Of a stretch of DNA of 64,000 nucleotides, positions 14,310 through 22,538 are shown in pieces. Source of the DNA: Cupriavidus basilensis OR16 (GTDB lineage: Bacteria; Pseudomonadota; Gammaproteobacteria; Burkholderiales; Burkholderiaceae). Position 1 is the stretch's first letter, and every line of letters starts with the position of its first letter. Both the position numbers and the translations under genes were made by a program. The stretch is from contig NZ_AHJE01000015.1 in the NCBI RefSeq assembly GCF_000243095.1, positions 1-64,000 on the forward strand, written 5' to 3'. The notes beneath the pieces are model-generated. The model worked only from the letters and a program-made list of their open reading frames with translations. It had not been told where the DNA came from and did no database searches.

Positions 14310-15148
14310 ATTTTCTGCCCGACGCCTCCCGGCGCACGTTTCAACACCACCTGCAACGCCATCTCCAGTCCGTGCGCGAATACGCCAGCCAGCCCTCCCG
14401 GCTTGCGCTCGCGGCGTTGCTGGTGAGCGCCTGCCTTGCGCTGGTGCTGTTGCCGGCCATGGCCCAGGCGCAGGCATTGCCCGGCTTGACCAGCAAGGCC
14501 GGCCCGGGCGGCAGCCAGACCTGGTCGCTGTCGGTGCAGACGCTGGTCCTGCTCACCTCGCTGTCGTTCCTGCCCGCGGCCATGCTGATGATGACGGGCT
14601 TCACCCGCATCATCATCGTGCTGGGGCTGCTGCGCAACGCGCTGGGCACGGCCAGTTCCCCGCCTAACCAGGTACTGGTGGGGCTGTCGCTGTTCCTCAC
14701 CTTCTTTGTCATGTCGCCGGTGTTCGACCGCATCTACACCGACGCCTACAAGCCGCTGTCCGAAAACAAGCTCAGCCTGGAAGACGCCGCCGCCAAGGCC
14801 GCCGCGCCGCTCAAGGCCTTCATGCTCAAGCAGACACGCGAGAAGGACCTGGCGCTGTTTGCACAGATGGCCAAGGTCCCCGAGATGCAAGGCCCCGAAG
14901 ACGTGCAGATGCGCATCCTGGTGCCTGCCTTTGTCACCAGCGAGCTCAAGACCGCGTTCCAGATCGGCTTCACTGTCTTTATCCCCTTCCTGATCATCGA
15001 CCTGGTGGTAGCCAGCGTGCTGATGGCGATGGGCATGATGATGGTGCCGCCGGCTACCATCTCGCTGCCATTCAAGCTGATGTTGTTCGTGCTGGCGGAC
15101 GGGTGGCAATTGCTGCTGGGCTCGCTGGCGCAGAGCTTCCTGAACTGA
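14306..15148 (+). CDS. fliP: Flagellar export gate protein FliP
   Basis: Integral membrane subunit of the FliPQR export gate. 280 residues, about 35 longer than most FliP; the extra residues form a basic N-terminal extension ([19 protein letters not shown]) ahead of the signal-type helix ending in MAQAQA. Family motifs include [18 protein letters not shown] (here beginning VLGLLRN), [12 protein letters not shown] and [19 protein letters not shown] start further downstream cannot be excluded, but the four-base fliO overlap favours 14306. Confidence 0.95.
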
Positions 15149-15182
15149 TCACGGGGCGCTTGCCCCACCCGAGGCCTTCGCC

Positions 15183-15452
15183 ATGACGCCGGAAACCGTA
15201 ATGAGCTTCGCCACCCAGGCGATGAAAATGACCCTGATGCTGGCCGCGCCGCTGCTGCTGGTGGCACTGGTGGCCGGCCTGGTGGTGAGCCTGTTCCAGG
15301 CCGCCACGCAGATCAATGAAATGACGCTGTCCTTCATCCCCAAGCTGCTGGCGCTCTTCGCCACCATGGTGCTGGCCGGCCCGTGGATGATCAACACCTT
15401 CGTCGACTACATGCGCGAAGTGTTCCAGGGCATTCCCGCCCTGGTGCATTGA
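15183..15452 (+). CDS. fliQ: Flagellar export gate protein FliQ
   Basis: Small two-helix membrane protein of the export gate, 89 residues, with the conserved opening MTPETVMSFATQAMKM, a first helix (LLLVALVAGLVVSLFQA), the conserved QINEMTLSFIPK loop, and a second helix. 34 bp after fliP. Confidence 0.95.
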   Translation: MTPETVMSFATQAMKMTLMLAAPLLLVALVAGLVVSLFQAATQINEMTLSFIPKLLALFATMVLAGPWMINTFVDYMREVFQGIPALVH

Positions 15453-15512
15453 GCCCGGGCCTGGCGTCGCACCTGGCTGCGCTCAGCAACATCTAACGCC
15501 GCATCCGCCGCC

Positions 15513-16296
15513 GTGCTCTCCGTCACCTCCGCCCAGCTCTACGCCTGGATCGCCGCCTTCCTCTGGCCCTTGTTCCGCCTGCTGGCCCTGATCGGCACCG
15601 CCCCGCTGTTCGGCGAGTCCACTATCCCCAGGCGCGCCAAGGTTGCCCTGTCAGCGCTGATCGCGGTGATCATCTCGCCCACCATCGACCACCTGCCGCT
15701 GGTGCCGGTGTACTCGCTGGAAGGCTTCCTGATCATCCTCAACGAGGTAGGCATCGGACTGGCGATGGGTTTTAGCATGCGGCTGGTGTTCTCCGCCGTG
15801 CAATTCGCCGGCGAAACCATCGGCCTGCAGATGGGCCTGTCGTTCGCGTCCTTCTACGATCGCTCCTCCGGTGGCCAGACCATGGTGCTGGCGCGCTTTC
15901 TCAATGTGGTCGCCATGCTGATGTTCCTGGCCATGGACGGCCACCTGATGCTGCTGGCCACCATCGCCGACAGCTTCGCCAGCCTGCCCATCGCGGCCCA
16001 GCCCCTCACCGGCGCCGGTGGCCGCCGCGGCCGCCGCCGGCGGCACAGTGTTCTCCTCCGGGATGCTGCTGGCCCTGCCGCTGATCGCCGCGCTGCTCAC
16101 CCTTAACCTCGCCATGGGCATCCTGAACCGCGCATCCCCCCAATTGTCGATTTTCGCGGTCGGCTTTCCGGTCACGCTGGGCGGCGGCATCCTGATGATG
16201 ATGCTGATCATGCCGCAGATGAGCACCTTCATGGCGCGGCTGATCGAGGGCGGGTTGAGTACGGTGGCATCGGTGCTGGGGCAGTTCGGGCGGTGA
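15513..16296 (+). pseudogene. fliR: Flagellar export gate protein FliR, frameshifted
   Basis: Third membrane subunit of the export gate. From the GTG at 15513 the frame encodes a normal FliR (GTAPLFGESTIPRRAKVALS, then ETIGLQMGLSFASFYDRSSG) for about 168 residues. After QPLTG the family sequence continues in another frame (AAAGGTVFSSGMLLALPLIAALL to SVLGQFGR, stop 16296). A one-base gain or two-base loss lies within 16008-16025, in a GC-only stretch (ggcgccggtggccgcc). Read through, the product would be about 260 residues, the usual size. As FliR is essential for flagellar export, a true frameshift would make the cell non-flagellate; a sequencing error in this GC run is a fair alternative. 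Confidence 0.85.
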
Positions 16297-16530
16297 GGGC
16301 CAGGTCACGAGAGACGCGTCCGGGGTTTTAAGAATCCGTTTCAACAGATCGGTGAGCATGGCCCCGTAGCGCCAGGCCTGCAAATCGGCGTCATCGGCAA
16401 ACAGCGACAGCGTCTTGCCCCCAACGGTGGCGTTCTTGGCGCCGTCCTTGCGGCCGATGTGCTGGAGAATTTGTTTGTAACCAACCCTGAAATGGCTCTT
16501 AGATTTCTGTGCCCACCTCTCATCTCAAAA
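16297..16530 (-). pseudogene. Unrecognised gene fragment next to fliR
   Basis: On the minus strand an open stretch encodes HFRVGYKQILQHIGRKD, then ADDADLQAWRYGAMLTDLL and a helix (KRILKTPDASLVT), before running into the fliR 3' end. It lacks a plausible start. I do not recognise the family; it reads like a piece of a larger protein left at the edge of the AT-rich block. Confidence 0.3.
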
Positions 16531-16914
16531 TCATCGATTTTTTGAAATCACACCACTCATGTATTGATTTAAATCGCGCAGATCCTTAATCCTCCAAGAG
16601 TACGGCGATAGCTTTACACCATTCTCTTGCAAAGTTTTTGGAATCAAGTCTCCATTTGGACGAAGTATTATCGATGACACAATAACGCCCGGATAATCAT
16701 TTAGTCGTTTTTTGAAAGCGGATTTTGTAAGATCAGGCGTAAGAGGATTGCTCTTATTAGCCAATGGTCCTGTTCCCTTGAGATCCATTCCGTGGCACAT
16801 GGCACATCTCTGTAAATAGAGATTTCTCCCATTGACATTATCCGCTAAGGATAGTGATGTTTGAATTAGCGATAAAATTCCCAGCGAAGCGATGAATAAT
16901 ATCTTCATTTTCAT
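16531..16914 (-). CDS. Small periplasmic cytochrome c, AT-rich (foreign) gene
   Basis: 127 residues with a signal peptide (MKMKILFIASLGILSLIQT, cleaved near SLA-DN) and a single heme-attachment motif CAMCH near residue 37. The Met ligand is unclear: no MP motif follows, the nearest candidate being QYMSG near the C-terminus. Its codons are rich in A/T (about 40 percent G+C by eye) against about two thirds around it, and gene fragments flank it on both sides, so it was probably acquired. Role as an electron carrier is inferred from the family only. Confidence 0.7.
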   Translation of the reverse strand: MKMKILFIASLGILSLIQTSLSLADNVNGRNLYLQRCAMCHGMDLKGTGPLANKSNPLTPDLTKSAFKKRLNDYPGVIVSSIILRPNGDLIPKTLQENGVKLSPYSWRIKDLRDLNQYMSGVISKNR

Positions 16915-17000
16915 GTGGTCTTGTTGTATAAATCAGATCTGAATCGATGGCAAACCCCGGAGGTGCCACTGCAACACTCAATTCTCTCGATAAAATTTGA

Positions 17001-17357
17001 AGCTGCCACAAGATCAGCAGGGACTTTGACCAGGGCGACATCCTGGCCCACGAAGTGGCCTTCAATCTCGATGCCCTGTGGAAAAATGCCGTGCCGCAGG
17101 GTACGGGCTCCTACATCCCCTTCTGGACCGACGACGACCGCACGCTCGACTTTTCCCTGACGCCCGAGCGCATCAACGGCAACGTGGTCCACGTCATCGA
17201 CGCCCACGCCTGGCACGAACCGCATAGCCTGCCGCCGGGCATGGTAGACCACGTCGATGGCGAGCGCTTCGTTGTCTCCCGCACGGGCGGATTCGTCGCC
17301 ATTCCCGAGTGGAACCTGTTGCCGCCCGGACAGATGCGGGGCACGGCGCCGCGTTGA
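17001..17357 (+). pseudogene. Fragment of an unrecognised protein
   Basis: The frame has a stop at 16998 and no good start before a GTG at 17055. It encodes about 115 residues (DFDQGDILAHEVAFNLDAL, FWTDDDRTLDFSLTPE, VHVIDAHAWHEPHSLPPGM, GGFVAIPEWNLLPPGQ). Composition is like the host chromosome, and the coding signal begins abruptly at the AT-rich block, so its 5' end was probably replaced. An intact small protein from 17055 is the alternative. No family recognised. Confidence 0.4.
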
Positions 17358-17405
17358 GCGCACACGGTTGCGCGGGGGCCACTGGCGGATTGCGGCGCAG
17401 CCCTC

Positions 17406-18632
17406 TCAGCCCTTTACGCACACCACCTGCTTGAGCGTGTGGACCACCTCGACCAAGTCGGACTGCGCCGCCATCACCGCGTCGATATCCTTGTAGGCCA
17501 TCGGGATCTCATCGATCACCTCTGCGTCCTTGCGGCATTCCACGCCTTGCGTGGCGCGCCGCTGGTCGTCCACCGAAAACCGGCGCTTGGCTTCGCTGCG
17601 GCTCATGGTGCGCCCCGCACCGTGGCTGCAGGAGCAGAACGATTCCGCATTGCCCTTGCCGCGCACGATGTAGGAGCGCGCGCCCATCGAACCCGGGATG
17701 ATGCCAAGCTCGCCGGCCTTGGCGCTGACCGCGCCCTTGCGGGTGACCAGCACGTCTTCGCCGAAGTGGCGCTCTTTCTGCACGTAGTTATGGTGGCAGT
17801 TCACCGCCTCCATCGCCGTGGCAAAGGGCTTGCCGATCACGGCGCGCGCGGCGTCCAGCACGTTGGCCATCATCGTCTCGCGGTTGCGGCGTGCGTACTG
17901 CTGCGCCCACTCCACCGCGAACACATAGTCTTCATAGTGCGCGCTGCCTTCCACCAGGTAAGCCAGGTCGCGGTCGGGCAGGTTGATGAAGTGCCGGCGC
18001 ATATCCGCTTGCGCCAGCTCGATAAAGGTGTTGCCGATGGCATTACCCACCCCGCGCGAGCCCGAGTGCAGCATGAACCAGACCGACTGGCTCTCATCCA
18101 GGCAGACCTCGATAAAGTGGTTACCGGTACCCAGTGTGCCCAGGTGGTTGCGGTTGTTGGTGCGCTCCAGCTTCGGGTACTTCCGCGTGATGCGCTCGAA
18201 GCCTCCAGCCAACGCGGCCCAGCTCGCATCCACCGCATCCGGCACATCGCCCCAGGCGCCCTTGTCGCGCCCGCTGCGGTTGTTGGAGCGGCCATGCGGC
18301 ACCGCTTTCTCGATGGCGCTGCGCAGCGAACCCAGGCTGTCAGGCAGGTCGCTGGCGCTCAGCGTGGTCTTGACGGCGATCATGCCGCAGCCGATATCCA
18401 CGCCTACCGCCGCCGGGATGACGGCGCCACGTGTCGGGATCACCGAGCCGATGGTGGAACCCATGCCCAGGTGCACGTCCGGCATCACGGCCAGATGCTT
18501 GAAGATGAACGGCATCTGGGCGGTGTTGGCGAGTTGTGCGCGGGCGCCGTCATCGACGGGCACGCCACGGGTCCACATCTTGACCGGGCGGCCGGTGCCG
18601 GACTGGAATACGTCGTAGTTCTCCTTGCTCAT
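17406..18632 (-). CDS. rtcB: 3'-phosphate/5'-hydroxy RNA ligase RtcB
   Basis: GTP- and Mn-dependent ligase that joins 2',3'-cyclic phosphate or 3'-phosphate RNA ends to 5'-OH ends, used in RNA repair. 408 residues, the E. coli length. Visible motifs: VGVDIGCGM (metal-binding Asp and Cys), NHLGTLGTGNHFIE, LHSGSRGVG, NCHHNYV, the guanylated His in FCSCSHGAGR, and the metal His residues. No rtcA or rtcR is next to it, but two tRNA-like RNA structures lie immediately upstream in the same direction. The ATG at 18632 follows a purine-rich stretch. Confidence 0.96.
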   Translation of the reverse strand: MSKENYDVFQSGTGRPVKMWTRGVPVDDGARAQLANTAQMPFIFKHLAVMPDVHLGMGSTIGSVIPTRGAVIPAAVGVDIGCGMIAVKTTLSASDLPDSLGSLRSAIEKAVPHGRSNNRSGRDKGAWGDVPDAVDASWAALAGGFERITRKYPKLERTNNRNHLGTLGTGNHFIEVCLDESQSVWFMLHSGSRGVGNAIGNTFIELAQADMRRHFINLPDRDLAYLVEGSAHYEDYVFAVEWAQQYARRNRETMMANVLDAARAVIGKPFATAMEAVNCHHNYVQKERHFGEDVLVTRKGAVSAKAGELGIIPGSMGARSYIVRGKGNAESFCSCSHGAGRTMSRSEAKRRFSVDDQRRATQGVECRKDAEVIDEIPMAYKDIDAVMAAQSDLVEVVHTLKQVVCVKG

Positions 18633-18647
18633 GCCGTCTTCTCTCTT

Positions 18648-18764
18648 TGCCTTGCGGCGGGATTCGAACCCGCAAACGCCTCAGCCGTAGTGATGCAGTT
18701 CCACGGGCTTTCGCCCATCAACTCGTCTTGAATCGTAGAACAATGCGGCATCGCCGCGACAAGG
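18648..18764 (-). ncRNA. tRNA-like RNA, proximal to rtcB (YrlA-like candidate)
   Basis: Read on the minus strand, a T-arm with 5-bp stem gcggg/cccgc (18657-18673) and canonical 7-nt loop ttcgaat is followed directly by a 7-nt strand (cgcaagg) that pairs with ccttg-t-cg at 18757-18764, as an acceptor stem with one bulge. Inside are hairpins gcggc-gat-gccgc and gggc-gaaa-gccc; the latter contains ggcgaaag, fitting the GNCGAAN(0-1)G motif that, as I recall, is described for bacterial Y RNAs. It lacks a normal anticodon arm and an encoded CCA, so it is not an ordinary tRNA. It ends about 15 nt before the rtcB start. In Salmonella Y-like RNAs (yrlBA) precede rtcBA; no rsr gene is seen here. Confidence 0.55.
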
Positions 18765-18787
18765 ATCGGCTGGATTCACGCGCCGTT

Positions 18788-18884
18788 CCGTGCGCAGCGC
18801 ACCGGAATTGAACCGGCAATCACCAGATGTATCCTGGCCAGCATTCGGGGCGAGTCCGCATATCGCAGACGCCATGCGCAGCGG
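18788..18884 (-). ncRNA. tRNA-like cloverleaf RNA, distal to rtcB (YrlB-like candidate)
   Basis: The minus strand folds by hand into a four-way cloverleaf: closing stem ccg(c)tgcgca with tgcgcacgg (9 bp, one bulge); a D-like hairpin (ggcg-tctgc around gatat); an anticodon-like arm gccag/ctggt with a 7-nt loop gatacat; and a T-arm gccgg/ccggt with loop ttcaatt, which fits TTCRANY. Loop position 33 is A instead of U and there is no CCA, so a functional tRNA is unlikely. It lies 23 bp upstream of the first element and 50 bp from the beta-lactamase stop. Confidence 0.55.
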
Positions 18885-18937
18885 CTGGCCACGTACCTCG
18901 GCAAATTCGGCCTGACCTTCGCGGCCGCGAGCCAGTC

Positions 18938-19843
18938 CTAGCTTAGCGCCTCGGCCGCGATCCGCGCGGCGGATGCCAGCACGTCGTTGCGATAGACGGC
19001 GTCCTTGCCGGGTTGCGTGAAATAGATGGCCAGCACGATGGGCGGTTTTCCGGGCGGCCATGCCACACCGATGTCGTTGGCCGTACCGTAGTCGCCGGAG
19101 CCCGTCTTGTCCGCCACCAGCCAGTCTGCCGGCACCCCGGCGCGGATGCGCGTGGCGCCGGTGGTATTGCCGCGCATCCATGCCACCAGCCTTTCGCGCT
19201 CTGCACCGCCCAGCGCATCGCCCAGCGTGAGCCGTTGCAGGCTCGCTGCCATGGCCGCGGGGGTCGACGTATCGCGGGGGTCGCCCGGTATCGCGGTGTT
19301 GAGCTCGGTCTCCCAGCGGTCGAGCCGGAACGTGTCGTCGCCGATCGCGCGGGCAAACGCGGTCACTGCGGCGGGGCCGCCGAGCAGCTGCATCAGCAGG
19401 TTGGCTGCCGTGTTGTCGCTGTATTGCAGGGCGGCCGCGCAGAGTTCGGCTACTGTCAGGCCGGCGCCGGCATGCTTCTCGGTGATCGGGGAATAGGCGA
19501 CGAGCTCGGCCTTCGTGTAGGCGATGCGCCGTTGCAGCATGCCGCCTTCCGTTGCGCTGCGGCGAAGGATGGCGGATACGGCGAGTACCTTGAATGTACT
19601 GCAGAGCGCAAAGCGCTCATTGGCGCGGTGGCTGAGCTGCGCGCCGCTGGCGGTGTTCAGCGCGGCCACGCCGAGGCGCCCGCCAGCGGCGGATTCGAGC
19701 GCGGCCAGGCGGTCTTGCGCCGCAGCGTGGCCGGATGTTCCGCCAGCCAACGAAGTACAGGCGGCGGCAAGGGGAACCGAAGCGGCGGTTAGCAACAACG
19801 TGCGGCGAACGGGGGAAATGGGGGAAATGGGAGAGCGTGTCAT
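18938..19843 (-). CDS. Class A beta-lactamase, Tat-type lipoprotein
   Basis: Serine beta-lactamase hydrolysing penicillins and cephalosporins in the periplasm. 301 residues with all class A motifs: S70-xx-K in CSTFK, S130-D-N in YSDN, E166 in WETELN, and K234-T-G in DKTGSG. The N-terminus has a twin-arginine segment (VRRTLLLTAA) ending in a lipobox LAAAC, as in Burkholderia PenA/PenI. Two copies of a 9-bp unit after the start code for SPISPIS. It lies 20 bp downstream of the class D gene and is probably co-transcribed. No ampR-type regulator is adjacent. Confidence 0.92.
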   Translation of the reverse strand: MTRSPISPISPVRRTLLLTAASVPLAAACTSLAGGTSGHAAAQDRLAALESAAGGRLGVAALNTASGAQLSHRANERFALCSTFKVLAVSAILRRSATEGGMLQRRIAYTKAELVAYSPITEKHAGAGLTVAELCAAALQYSDNTAANLLMQLLGGPAAVTAFARAIGDDTFRLDRWETELNTAIPGDPRDTSTPAAMAASLQRLTLGDALGGAERERLVAWMRGNTTGATRIRAGVPADWLVADKTGSGDYGTANDIGVAWPPGKPPIVLAIYFTQPGKDAVYRNDVLASAARIAAEALS

Positions 19844-19863
19844 CGGTCTTTTCCTGTGATGGA

Positions 19864-20673
19864 TCAGCGAGCCTGGAGCGGCCCCAGCAATCCCGGCAGA
19901 GCCTGCAAGAACGCATCACGCGCGCGCAGGCCGGCGCCGACCGGCTCCTTCTTTTCATCCTGGATCAAGCGGGCAAAGACCACGTTCCGGCCGTCTTTCG
20001 CCGCCCAGCCGACAAACCATCCGTAGCCGTGGCTCCAGTCCTCGGCGCCATCGGCCTGGCGCGGTGCGCCGGTGCCGGTCTTGCCGTAAACGGACCAGCC
20101 GTTTGGCAACTCGCCGAGCGCCATGATCCGGCTCGTCATGTCGTAGGCATGCGCGCTGACGGGCAATTTGCGATTCACCACATTTTGCAGGAAGGCGACC
20201 TGCTCCAGCGGCGAGATCTTCAGCGACGAGCTCAACCATGCATGCGTCAGCCCATTGTGCTTGCCGGGGTCGCCGGAGACGTCGCCGTTTCCATATTGGA
20301 ACGCGCTCATGTAGCGCCGAAAGCGCGCTTCGCCGAGTTGTTGCGTCACCTGCCGCGAGTACCAGATGACGGAGGTCTGCATCCAGCGCTGCGGATCCGT
20401 GGTGACGCGCTTGGCGGGGTTGCTCTCGCGATATGCTTCGCGATACGGCATGGCCGGCGCATGCTCGTCCATCAGAAGGCCGGCGTCGAAGCCCATCAGG
20501 CTGAGCGGCACCTTGAACGTCGATGCGGCGGTCACGCGCTTGTCGCAGGTGCCTTCCTGTTTGATCAGCTTGCCGGTGCCGCCATCGGCCAGGACCGTGC
20601 ACAGTACCTCGGCACGGGCGGTTGAGAGGAACAGCGCCGCGCAGAGCGCGCTGAAGATGCCGATTGGCTTCAA
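19864..20673 (-). CDS. Class D (OXA-type) beta-lactamase
   Basis: 269 residues from a TTG start at 20673 (cggag six bases upstream), with a signal peptide ending LFLSTARA. Class D motifs: STFK (carbamylated Lys), S-x-V in TSVIW, YGN in FQYGNGD, and KTGTG. It resembles the chromosomal OXA-22 type enzymes of Ralstonia. The longer frame to 20829 has no signal-peptide logic. Upstream member of a two-gene beta-lactamase operon. Confidence 0.9.
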   Translation of the reverse strand: MKPIGIFSALCAALFLSTARAEVLCTVLADGGTGKLIKQEGTCDKRVTAASTFKVPLSLMGFDAGLLMDEHAPAMPYREAYRESNPAKRVTTDPQRWMQTSVIWYSRQVTQQLGEARFRRYMSAFQYGNGDVSGDPGKHNGLTHAWLSSSLKISPLEQVAFLQNVVNRKLPVSAHAYDMTSRIMALGELPNGWSVYGKTGTGAPRQADGAEDWSHGYGWFVGWAAKDGRNVVFARLIQDEKKEPVGAGLRARDAFLQALPGLLGPLQAR

Positions 20674-20858
20674 GATTATCTCCGTGATTCCTGTTAGCGC
20701 GGCCGAAATGGCTGGCCAGGCCTGCGCACGAACCGGAGCATAGAAGCGCGGCGGCAAGACGCCAAGCCCACTCACTGTAACCTGCGTAACATGGCGTCTT
20801 CGGCCTCGTCCTCGTGGCTGATGGCACAATCCAGCCTACGTCCGCCACACCATCCCCC

Positions 20859-22538
20859 ATGCGCCAGCCCGCTCTCACCGTCGCGCTTTCCGCCCCCTAT
20901 CTCGTCAACGGCGAGCCCGCGCGCTACCAGAGCCTGTGGCTGCTCGCCGCCATCTGCGCGGCCGCACGCAACGGCGGGGCCAGCCTGCCGGCGGTGCACC
21001 TGCAAACCCGCTTCCCCGACGCCGCCAATATCCGCATGCTGGTCTCGCGCGCGTTTGCCGACTTCGCGCGCTGGGGCGTGCCGGTGGGCTGGGGACCGGA
21101 GCGCCACCAGGGGACAGCCGGGCTCAACCCGTCGCGCCGCAGCCGCGGGCCATTCTGGATCGAGCCGGCAGCCTGCAAGCGCGTGCGCTTCACCATGGAT
21201 GGCCGCAGCGCTGACGATGCGGCGCTGGCGCGCTTCGTGGGGCTGGGCACTGCCGCCACGAGGCGCGCCGCCCGCCTGGGGGACGAGGCCCACCCCGCGG
21301 TCGACTACGTGATGCGCGACATCAGCTACTGGAGCCATCTCACGCAAGCCATGCGCGGCATGCAGGACGGCGTGGGCGTTGCCGGTGTTGCAGGCGGCAG
21401 TGCCGGCAACGGGGTGGCGGATGCCCTGCGCGCCGCCCAGCGCTGCGCCACCGACGATTTCCAGCACGCCTTCGCGCTGCTCAAGGAAAGCCTGGCCTGG
21501 CGGCGCGGTGACGACCTCGCGCGCAGCCGCGCGGCGCTGCAACGCTTTGATCGCATCGTGGGCACCGGCACCGTGGACACGGCGGTGCCCACCTTCGCCG
21601 CGATGGCGCGCGTGGTGCGGGCCTGGGAGCGCTACGCCGGCAACCAGATGGCGGCGGCGCAGGCGGAACTGGAAGGCCTCGCGGCCGACCCCGCGCTGCA
21701 GCCGGTGCTGCGCTACAACCCGCGCGTACGCTTCGAAACCCTCAACCTCGGCGCACTGATCCACAAGACGGTGGCCGTACGCGACATGGCAACGCAGCCG
21801 CAGGCGGCCCGGCAAGCGGCCGAAGCGGCCATGGCAGGCTTCTCCGGCGCGCTGCAGGCCGCCTACGAGGCGGACTCGGTGGATGCCGCGCAGCACGTGG
21901 CGGCCAACCTCGGCCTTTGCCTGTGGCTGTTCTGGAACCACGCGCTGATCGATACCGGGCGCGCGTGGCCCGCGAGCCAGGTGCAGCGCCAGGCCGTGCG
22001 CTGGCTGGGCTTGTCGGAATGGATCTGCGACCGCTTTGGCGTGGGTGGTGGCTCGGCGTGGAACATCATCTTCCTGCTGCGCATTGCGCGCGGCAACTGC
22101 GCGCAGGACGGCGGCGGGGCGCTCAAGACGTTTCGCGCGCAACAGCCGCTGCTGCTGGCTGAGGCGGTGGACGCGCTGCGCCCCTTCCATGCGCCCTTTG
22201 CCCGCGCCAAGGGCTTTATCAGCTGGTCATCGCTGGCCAGCTTTGCGCTCGACGAGCACGACACCGGCCACGTGCATTACGGCACCCTGCCACTCGCCAA
22301 CCTGCTGCTGGAAGCCAGCTGGTTCCACGCCTTCGAGCATGGCGCGGCGCCTGCCGCGTTTGCCACGGTGGAACGCCTGGCCGGGCTGCTCGGCAAGCTG
22401 CGCCCGGCGGAGCGCCGCTTCTTTCTTTCGGCCATCACCGCGCTGCCACGCGAGCTGCAACTGGCCGCGGCCGAAGCCCTCCGCGCCGCGCCGCGCCCTG
22501 CCCGCAAGGCCAAGGCAAGGCCGCGCCTGCCAGGCTGA
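20859..22538 (+). CDS. Hypothetical protein, 559 residues
   Basis: No family recognised. The N-terminal ~100 residues (LTVALSAPYLVNGEPARYQS, then VSRAFADFARWGVPVGW) could be a winged-helix-like domain as in some OmpR/BTAD-type regulators; the rest is helical and Ala-rich, with segments such as FALLKESLAWRRGDDLARS that look like TPR-type repeats, and a basic tail (PRPARKAKARPRLPG). No signal peptide or membrane helices. It is divergent from the class D beta-lactamase, separated by 185 bp. The ATG at 20859 is favoured, though its ribosome site is poor. Function unknown. Confidence 0.6.
   Translation: MRQPALTVALSAPYLVNGEPARYQSLWLLAAICAAARNGGASLPAVHLQTRFPDAANIRMLVSRAFADFARWGVPVGWGPERHQGTAGLNPSRRSRGPFWIEPAACKRVRFTMDGRSADDAALARFVGLGTAATRRAARLGDEAHPAVDYVMRDISYWSHLTQAMRGMQDGVGVAGVAGGSAGNGVADALRAAQRCATDDFQHAFALLKESLAWRRGDDLARSRAALQRFDRIVGTGTVDTAVPTFAAMARVVRAWERYAGNQMAAAQAELEGLAADPALQPVLRYNPRVRFETLNLGALIHKTVAVRDMATQPQAARQAAEAAMAGFSGALQAAYEADSVDAAQHVAANLGLCLWLFWNHALIDTGRAWPASQVQRQAVRWLGLSEWICDRFGVGGGSAWNIIFLLRIARGNCAQDGGGALKTFRAQQPLLLAEAVDALRPFHAPFARAKGFISWSSLASFALDEHDTGHVHYGTLPLANLLLEASWFHAFEHGAAPAAFATVERLAGLLGKLRPAERRFFLSAITALPRELQLAAAEALRAAPRPARKAKARPRLPG

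Follow-up and report, generated by a model that had tools for sequence, protein, structure and literature searches.

Probable relics of bacterial Y RNAs in a decayed RNA-repair operon upstream of rtcB in Cupriavidus basilensis OR16

The window analysed here is a 64,000-nucleotide stretch of Cupriavidus basilensis OR16 (NZ_AHJE01000015.1, positions 1-64,000), a single strain represented by one draft genome in 416 contigs. On its minus strand a class A beta-lactamase ORF, an intergenic stretch and the ligase gene rtcB follow one another, and a remnant of rtcR on the plus strand abuts the beta-lactamase stop (Table 1). The initial annotation had read the intergenic stretch as two tandem tRNA-like RNAs (18648-18764 and 18788-18884) directly upstream of rtcB. 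The two minus-strand T-arms with TTCRANY loops were indeed seen, rtcB (PF01139) adjoins them, and a relationship to Y RNAs was borne out for both elements; the real elements, termed RNA1 and RNA2, have the different boundaries listed in Table 1. A scan of 18600-19050 returned no sigma-70-like promoter match. No paper on this locus was found in the accessible literature.

Table 1. Features of the rtcB locus in the window and related features at sister loci
Feature	Position	Strand	Description
rtcB	17406..18632	-	intact, 408 aa; PF01139 443.6 bits, E 1.2e-132
Intergenic stretch	18633..18937	-	between beta-lactamase ORF and rtcB
rtcB leader	18641..18656	-	CGCAAGGCAAAGAGAG, now fused to RNA2 T-arm
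RNA2	about 18654..18717	-	5' half of YrlA-type Y RNA; 3' half missing
Deletion junction	18654..18662	-	TCCCGCCGC; in RNA2 T-arm of sisters and, as AGTCCCGCCGCAAGGCAAAGAG, in rtcB leader of G003
RNA2 T-arm	18657..18673	-	matches RNA2 of sisters
RNA2 5' basal strand	18706..18716	-	GGGCGAAAGCC; matches RNA2 of sisters
RNA1	18750..18851	-	YrlB-like Y RNA, orphan, no clear D-arm; close to full length, basal stem damaged
RNA1 T-arm	18801..18817	-	GCCGG-TTCAATT-CCGGT; 5/5 pairs in window, G040 and G005
rtcR stump	18882..18941	+	last 19 codons and stop (RLATYLGKFGLTFAAASQS, then stop); resembles RtcR C-terminus of G040
Class A beta-lactamase ORF	18938..19843	-	PF13354 152.2 bits; upstream neighbour marking the syntenic slot
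Intact RNA2 counterparts	L080:8846..8980; L081:4428..4561		in G040 and G005
Mini-Y	L080:8605..8665; L081:4740..4800	- (L081)	plus 27 other loci (alignment A9)

When the intergenic stretch served as a DNA query against 60 genomes of the genus, eight gave a match, including the window's own, and the strongest matches were in Burkholderiaceae bacterium 16 (G040, locus L080) and C. basilensis GW210010_S58 (G005, locus L081). Both of these sisters keep rtcR, rsr, three Y-type RNAs, rtcB and rtcA. In G040 the slot begins with a close relative of the window's beta-lactamase, adjoined by rtcR on the opposite strand, and continues with rsr, the RNAs, rtcB, rtcA and an ORF, presumably fliR-like, that also stands beyond rtcB in the window; a 6.7-kb contig of G005 carries rsr, the RNAs, rtcB and rtcA in this order, with rtcR on another contig. 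The rsr product of the sisters has a vWA_Ro60 domain (1.5e-24), with a best match to solved Rsr/Ro60 proteins of 3.7e-29. By the Rfam YrlA model (RF02553, cut-off 69), the rtcB-adjacent YrlA-type RNA scores 75.3 bits in G005, 69.5 in G040 and 68.5 in C. pampae (G026), and the RNA preceding it scores 32.7, 30.6 and 35.9 bits, respectively.

The order in L080 and L081, with rtcR divergent in L080, is that of the Salmonella rsr-yrlBA-rtcBA operon, where two papers (PMC7790460, PMC9879122) place the Y RNA genes between rsr and rtcB; the same papers describe an RtcR-driven operon with a sigma-54 promoter upstream of rsr and a divergent rtcR. Unlike the Salmonella operon, the window is without rsr, rtcA and the body of rtcR, and one of its Y RNAs is halved and the other damaged.

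A scan of genome contigs with an rsr alignment found 231 relatives, of which 80 loci were kept; within the fetched DNA, rtcB was found in 78 of them, rtcR in 75 and rtcA in 71. At E up to 1, a covariance model built from five YrlA-type RNAs (R1) had a match downstream of rsr in 78 loci, all but L141 and L155. In the spacers of these loci (L086-L165, from Burkholderiales and relatives), two or more Y RNA copies of differing types were present in at least 54/80 loci, and up to five in one spacer, counted from the best 150 matches per model. Many Burkholderiales spacers additionally hold a mini-Y of about 60 nt between rsr and the larger Y RNAs, consisting of two Ro-type stems with no tRNA-like domain. 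Among 28 distinct hand-picked mini-Y sequences, both partners vary in 12 of 14 pairs and 97.7% of cells are paired; the copy of L080 has a minimum-energy fold without the basal stem. Four of ten loci scanned also carry tRNA arrays beside the rsr operon, namely L159:227-4120 (23 genes), L114:1994-4094 (17), L109:1278-2268 (10) and L103:1062-2270 (8), while L130 has five genes and the rest none or one. The hosts of these arrays are Aquabacterium, a beta proteobacterium MAG and Scleromatobacter, and the arrayed tRNAs are possibly spare tRNAs in a setting of tRNA damage.

The covariance search with Rfam, proposed at the outset, returned only sub-threshold results. Four matches at E up to 5, all below cut-off, were obtained on 15000-22000, two of them at this locus: tRNA-Sec with 21.4 bits (18793-18883, cut-off 47) and YrlA with 20.6 bits on RNA1. 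The latter alignment runs end to end through the full model (positions 1-114), and its score stays below the gathering cut-off of 69. Across the genus, 35 of the 60 genomes had an Rfam YrlA match with E no higher than 0.001, only two of them over the cut-off; the matches outside G005, G040 and G026 reached 30-36 bits and presumably mark ordinary tRNAs, and of 14 control genomes 7 were matched as well. Since Rfam YrlA was thus insufficient, own models were built from syntenic relatives. R1 proved noisy likewise (matches at E up to 0.01 in 53/60 genus genomes), and its genus search, run with strict filters, missed the RNA1 of the window, which targeted searches recovered.

The second model, R2, was built from 21 homologues with the window held out, and it matched RNA1 with 50.1 bits (E 2.1e-10 in 678,827 bases, 58 of 88 sources searched; E 3.2e-13 on 1 kb). 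RNA1 is therefore homologous in sequence and structure to bacterial Y RNAs, and it aligns with the RNA1 of L080 and L081, which score 66.5 and 63.9 bits. The compensatory base changes sought in relatives were found: 14 of 25 pairs change on both sides over 21 sequences, where shuffles gave 4.6 and never reached this value; these sequences were hand-picked from 43 non-window sequences, and one of them served as the template for the structure, giving it an advantage over slid controls. In this alignment the basal stem pairs in 126/126 cells, the second stem in 98.2%, the hairpin in 85.4% and the closing helix of the tRNA-like part in 73.0%. The T-arm of the tRNA-like domain is complete, with five of five pairs and a TTCAATT loop.

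The damage to RNA1 lies elsewhere. Its R2 score is the lowest of 56 loci compared, the other 55 spanning 51.4-111.9 bits. A C-C apposition stands in the basal stem where the sisters have A-U, the second stem has a C-A mismatch relative to the sisters, and one nucleotide is missing at GAT(T)ACAT. The Rsr-site strands GAAUGC and UUGUC are both present, with five of six standard basal pairs, and ViennaRNA predicts a mean probability of 0.00 for this Ro-binding stem, against at least 0.63 in 53 of the 55 other RNA1s. Such signs are not unique to relics, because two other RNA1s also have low probabilities (L114, 0.12; L159, 0.31) and four others have five of six pairs. Broken pairs are more frequent in the window by Fisher test (2/14 versus 3/294, p 0.018), a comparison made post hoc and on related sequences. 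The window differs from G040 at 12 of 101 sites (11.9%) and from G005 at 19 of 98, and G040 differs from G005 at 15 of 99, so that no clearly faster overall evolution of the window's RNA1 was evident from these counts; the damage therefore sits in the Ro-binding stem and is not part of an overall acceleration. In the register of G040, the RNA1 of G005 misses two of ten stem-2 pairs and five of seven hairpin pairs, and its own fold has a stem 2 of eight pairs. As the basal stem is predicted not to form, RNA1 is a Y RNA by descent and not a proven working member.

Two further sequence elements border RNA1. Just 5' of it, CTGCG-TATGCGGACT (18852-18868, minus strand) is kept in the window, G040 and G005, and could be a processing site or part of a promoter. 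A terminator-like hairpin, GCGGC-GAT-GCCGC followed by ATTGTTCT (18745-18757, minus strand), overlaps the 3' end of RNA1; shuffles expect 0.3 such hairpins.

RNA2 keeps the 5' strand and the T-arm of a YrlA-type RNA; relative to RF02553 its whole 3' half is gone, and with it the anticodon-like hairpin, the D-arm and the 3' strands of both stems. R1 gave 34.1-34.2 bits (E 2.6e-6 in 981,955 bases), a score little above the background of up to about 33 bits in other genus genomes, and the identity of RNA2 therefore rests mainly on synteny and on the sequence match to the sisters. To supply the 3' strands, the R1 alignment must enter the rtcB ORF. GTCGCCC occurs on the minus strand of 17.0-20.0 kb only at 17039. 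The motif GNCGAAN(0-1)G is reported for bacterial Y RNAs, and the proximal gggc-gaaa-gccc hairpin, which had been fitted to this motif, corresponds to the 5' strand of a basal stem that has been lost. Compensatory changes affect 5 of 26 RNA2 pairs over five sequences, against 2.7 in shuffles, of which 11 out of 500 came up to the real count. A leader closely similar to that of the window precedes rtcB in G003, G006 and G040, and G005 has none. The simplest reading of the break is a deletion of about 110 nt (G040 coordinates) between short direct repeats, which would have joined the T-arm to the rtcB leader.

For rtcA there was no match in the window genome. No recognisable rsr was found with a protein query comprising 443 C-terminal residues out of about 522, and the only hit was a partial 39% match (E 3.1e-4) in a 1552-aa frame elsewhere; RNA1 thus has no recognisable Rsr (Ro60) partner in the whole genome. 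Pfam TROVE likewise found none, but its sensitivity here is poor, since of the three genus rsr genes it picks up one, below cut-off, and the absence of rsr therefore rests on the protein query. For rtcR there are distant relatives only (best 37% over the AAA part) besides the stump at the locus. The initial view of the locus as a reduced rsr-yrlBA-rtcBA operon thus holds: rsr and rtcA are not recognisable genome-wide, and the locus retains no more of rtcR than the stump; the genes rsr, rtcA and rtcR that mark an rsr-yrl-rtcBA operon are not found intact.

Among 60 genomes of the genus, rtcB is present in 43, full-length rtcR in five, rtcA in four and rsr in three, so that 40 of the 43 rtcB-bearing genomes lack rsr. 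The closest rtcB relatives found, G003 (locus L079) and G006 (locus L078), with 96% identity, are both without rsr and rtcA. As read by eye, they share one deletion inside RNA2 that is unlike that of the window, and their upstream deletions differ: some 20 bases of rtcR and a 3' part of RNA1 survive in G003, and roughly 750 bases of broken rtcR and no RNA1 in G006. R2 found no RNA1 match in either locus, and in that of G003 R1 saw no more than a 10.0-bit trace. The rtcB synonymous divergence (dS) is 0.117 between G003 and G006, with the window outside at 0.20-0.25, matching the RNA2 deletion common to the two. The rtcB dN/dS is 0.094-0.129 between the window and four close relatives, 0.094-0.125 within the rsr-less trio and 0.110 for G040-G005. 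Judged by these substitution ratios, rtcB is under purifying selection in the window, G003 and G006.

Among the 39 other rsr-less rtcB-bearing genomes of the genus, 22 loci were examined, namely 20 in which rtcB is preceded by some 0.9-1 kb or more, together with G003 and G006. None gave an R2 match at E up to 1 or anything above 14 bits with R1, and two of them, G003 and G006, keep Y RNA fragments. Like these genomes, the window has kept rtcB without Rsr; the models find no Y RNA in the 22 loci, and the window still has one. Over 299 family genomes, searched with strict filters that may lose weak Y RNAs, R2 gave three matches, two of them in rsr-bearing genomes and the third in the window, so that no other orphan Y RNA came to light within this sample. 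In the rsr-less G015, a different tRNA-like gene lies between rtcR and rtcB (L192:2638-2709), with a shortened anticodon loop and a two-base "anticodon"; ARAGORN reports it as tRNA-??? and the Rfam tRNA model gives 42.0 bits (cut-off 29). Its DNA is full-length only in G015 among the 60 genomes, and matches elsewhere are short, mostly 77% over about 56 nt.

Taken together, both elements are probably relics of bacterial Y RNAs in a decayed RNA-repair operon and not regulators of RtcB. The ancestral operon would have had the order rsr, mini-Y, Y RNA1, Y RNA2, rtcB and rtcA, with rtcR divergent from rsr. One deletion would have taken rsr together with the mini-Y of 60 nt, the presumed sigma-54 promoter region and all of rtcR except its last 19 codons, and rtcA would have been lost downstream. 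A second deletion, between the short direct repeats, may then have cut away the 3' half of RNA2, leaving its T-arm joined to the rtcB leader. Y RNA1 has stayed nearly full length, but in this genome without a recognisable Rsr to bind it the Ro-binding stem is damaged, and both elements would now merely sit in the leader of a stand-alone RtcB ligase still under selection. In bacterial Y RNAs the basal stem is bound by Rsr, and PNPase is held by the tRNA-like domain (PMC8394870); in the species studied, deletion of the Ro protein lowers Y RNA levels (PMC4726728). With rsr missing and rtcR incomplete, the ancestral mechanism cannot operate at the window locus, and since Rsr/PNPase binding of this kind cannot happen here, both elements would be relics.

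The best of the alternatives, though unlikely, is that Y RNA1 is an orphan that still works without Rsr, either mimicking a tRNA for PNPase or tRNA-modifying enzymes or acting in cis within the rtcB leader. The T-arm with its TTCRANY loop and the upstream flank shared with G040 and G005 have been kept, and RNA1 differs from G040 at fewer sites than the synonymous sites of rtcB (28.5%). However, the basal stem is predicted unformed, a nucleotide is missing at GAT(T)ACAT, the second stem has a C-A mismatch, the relatives G003 and G006 retain a 3' part or nothing of RNA1, the models see no Y RNA in the 22 other rsr-less loci, and 18600-19050 gave no sigma-70-like promoter match. That Y RNA1 was kept after the loss of Rsr for a Ro-independent role, as a free tRNA mimic or a structured rtcB leader, is more doubtful still; if this were true, RNA1 would represent a bacterial Y RNA that works independently of Ro.

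The reading offered at the outset, in which two intact tRNA-like RNAs stand in tandem and feed or regulate RtcB, is very improbable in spite of the two T-arms and the tRNA-Sec score, which has a counterpart of 24.8 bits at the corresponding place in L002, also below 47. The acceptor-like closing stem of the distal unit pairs at 9/9 positions in the window, 5/9 in G040 and 2/9 in G005, and the unit is a stem-closed Y RNA seen in another register. The proximal unit is a junction product: with the RNA2 T-arm now fused to the rtcB leader, the closing stem CCTTG/CAAGG of this unit joins the RNA1 3' strand (18760-18764) to the leader (18650-18654). Folded alone, the two units have z-scores of -1.65 and -1.14, ordinary for their composition, and z-scores are uninformative for the window. 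A role as substrates, sensors or regulators of RtcB thus finds no support, with the Ro-binding stem damaged and the 22 other rsr-less rtcB loci devoid of model-detected Y RNAs. Neither element is a normal tRNA, as had been recognized, and tRNA or tRNA-Sec pseudogenes unrelated to Y RNAs are the least credible reading: the weak tRNA-Sec score and canonical T-arms would fit them, but ARAGORN finds no tRNA gene in the 64 kb, the Y RNA model accounts for the whole 102 nt, and the sister elements in L080 and L081 lie between rsr and rtcB.

Read as Y RNA relics, the elements belong to a natural deletion series in one syntenic slot, in which G040 has the full cassette and three relatives have lost Ro, RtcA, RtcR and most Y RNAs in different ways. 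RtcB is under the same selection across this series, which argues that it has a job needing no Ro, Y RNAs, RtcA or RtcR, and the series offers matched strains for testing the contribution of the Ro/Y RNA arm. The state of RNA1 further suggests an order in which an orphan Y RNA decays, with the Ro-binding stem failing while the T-arm is still intact.
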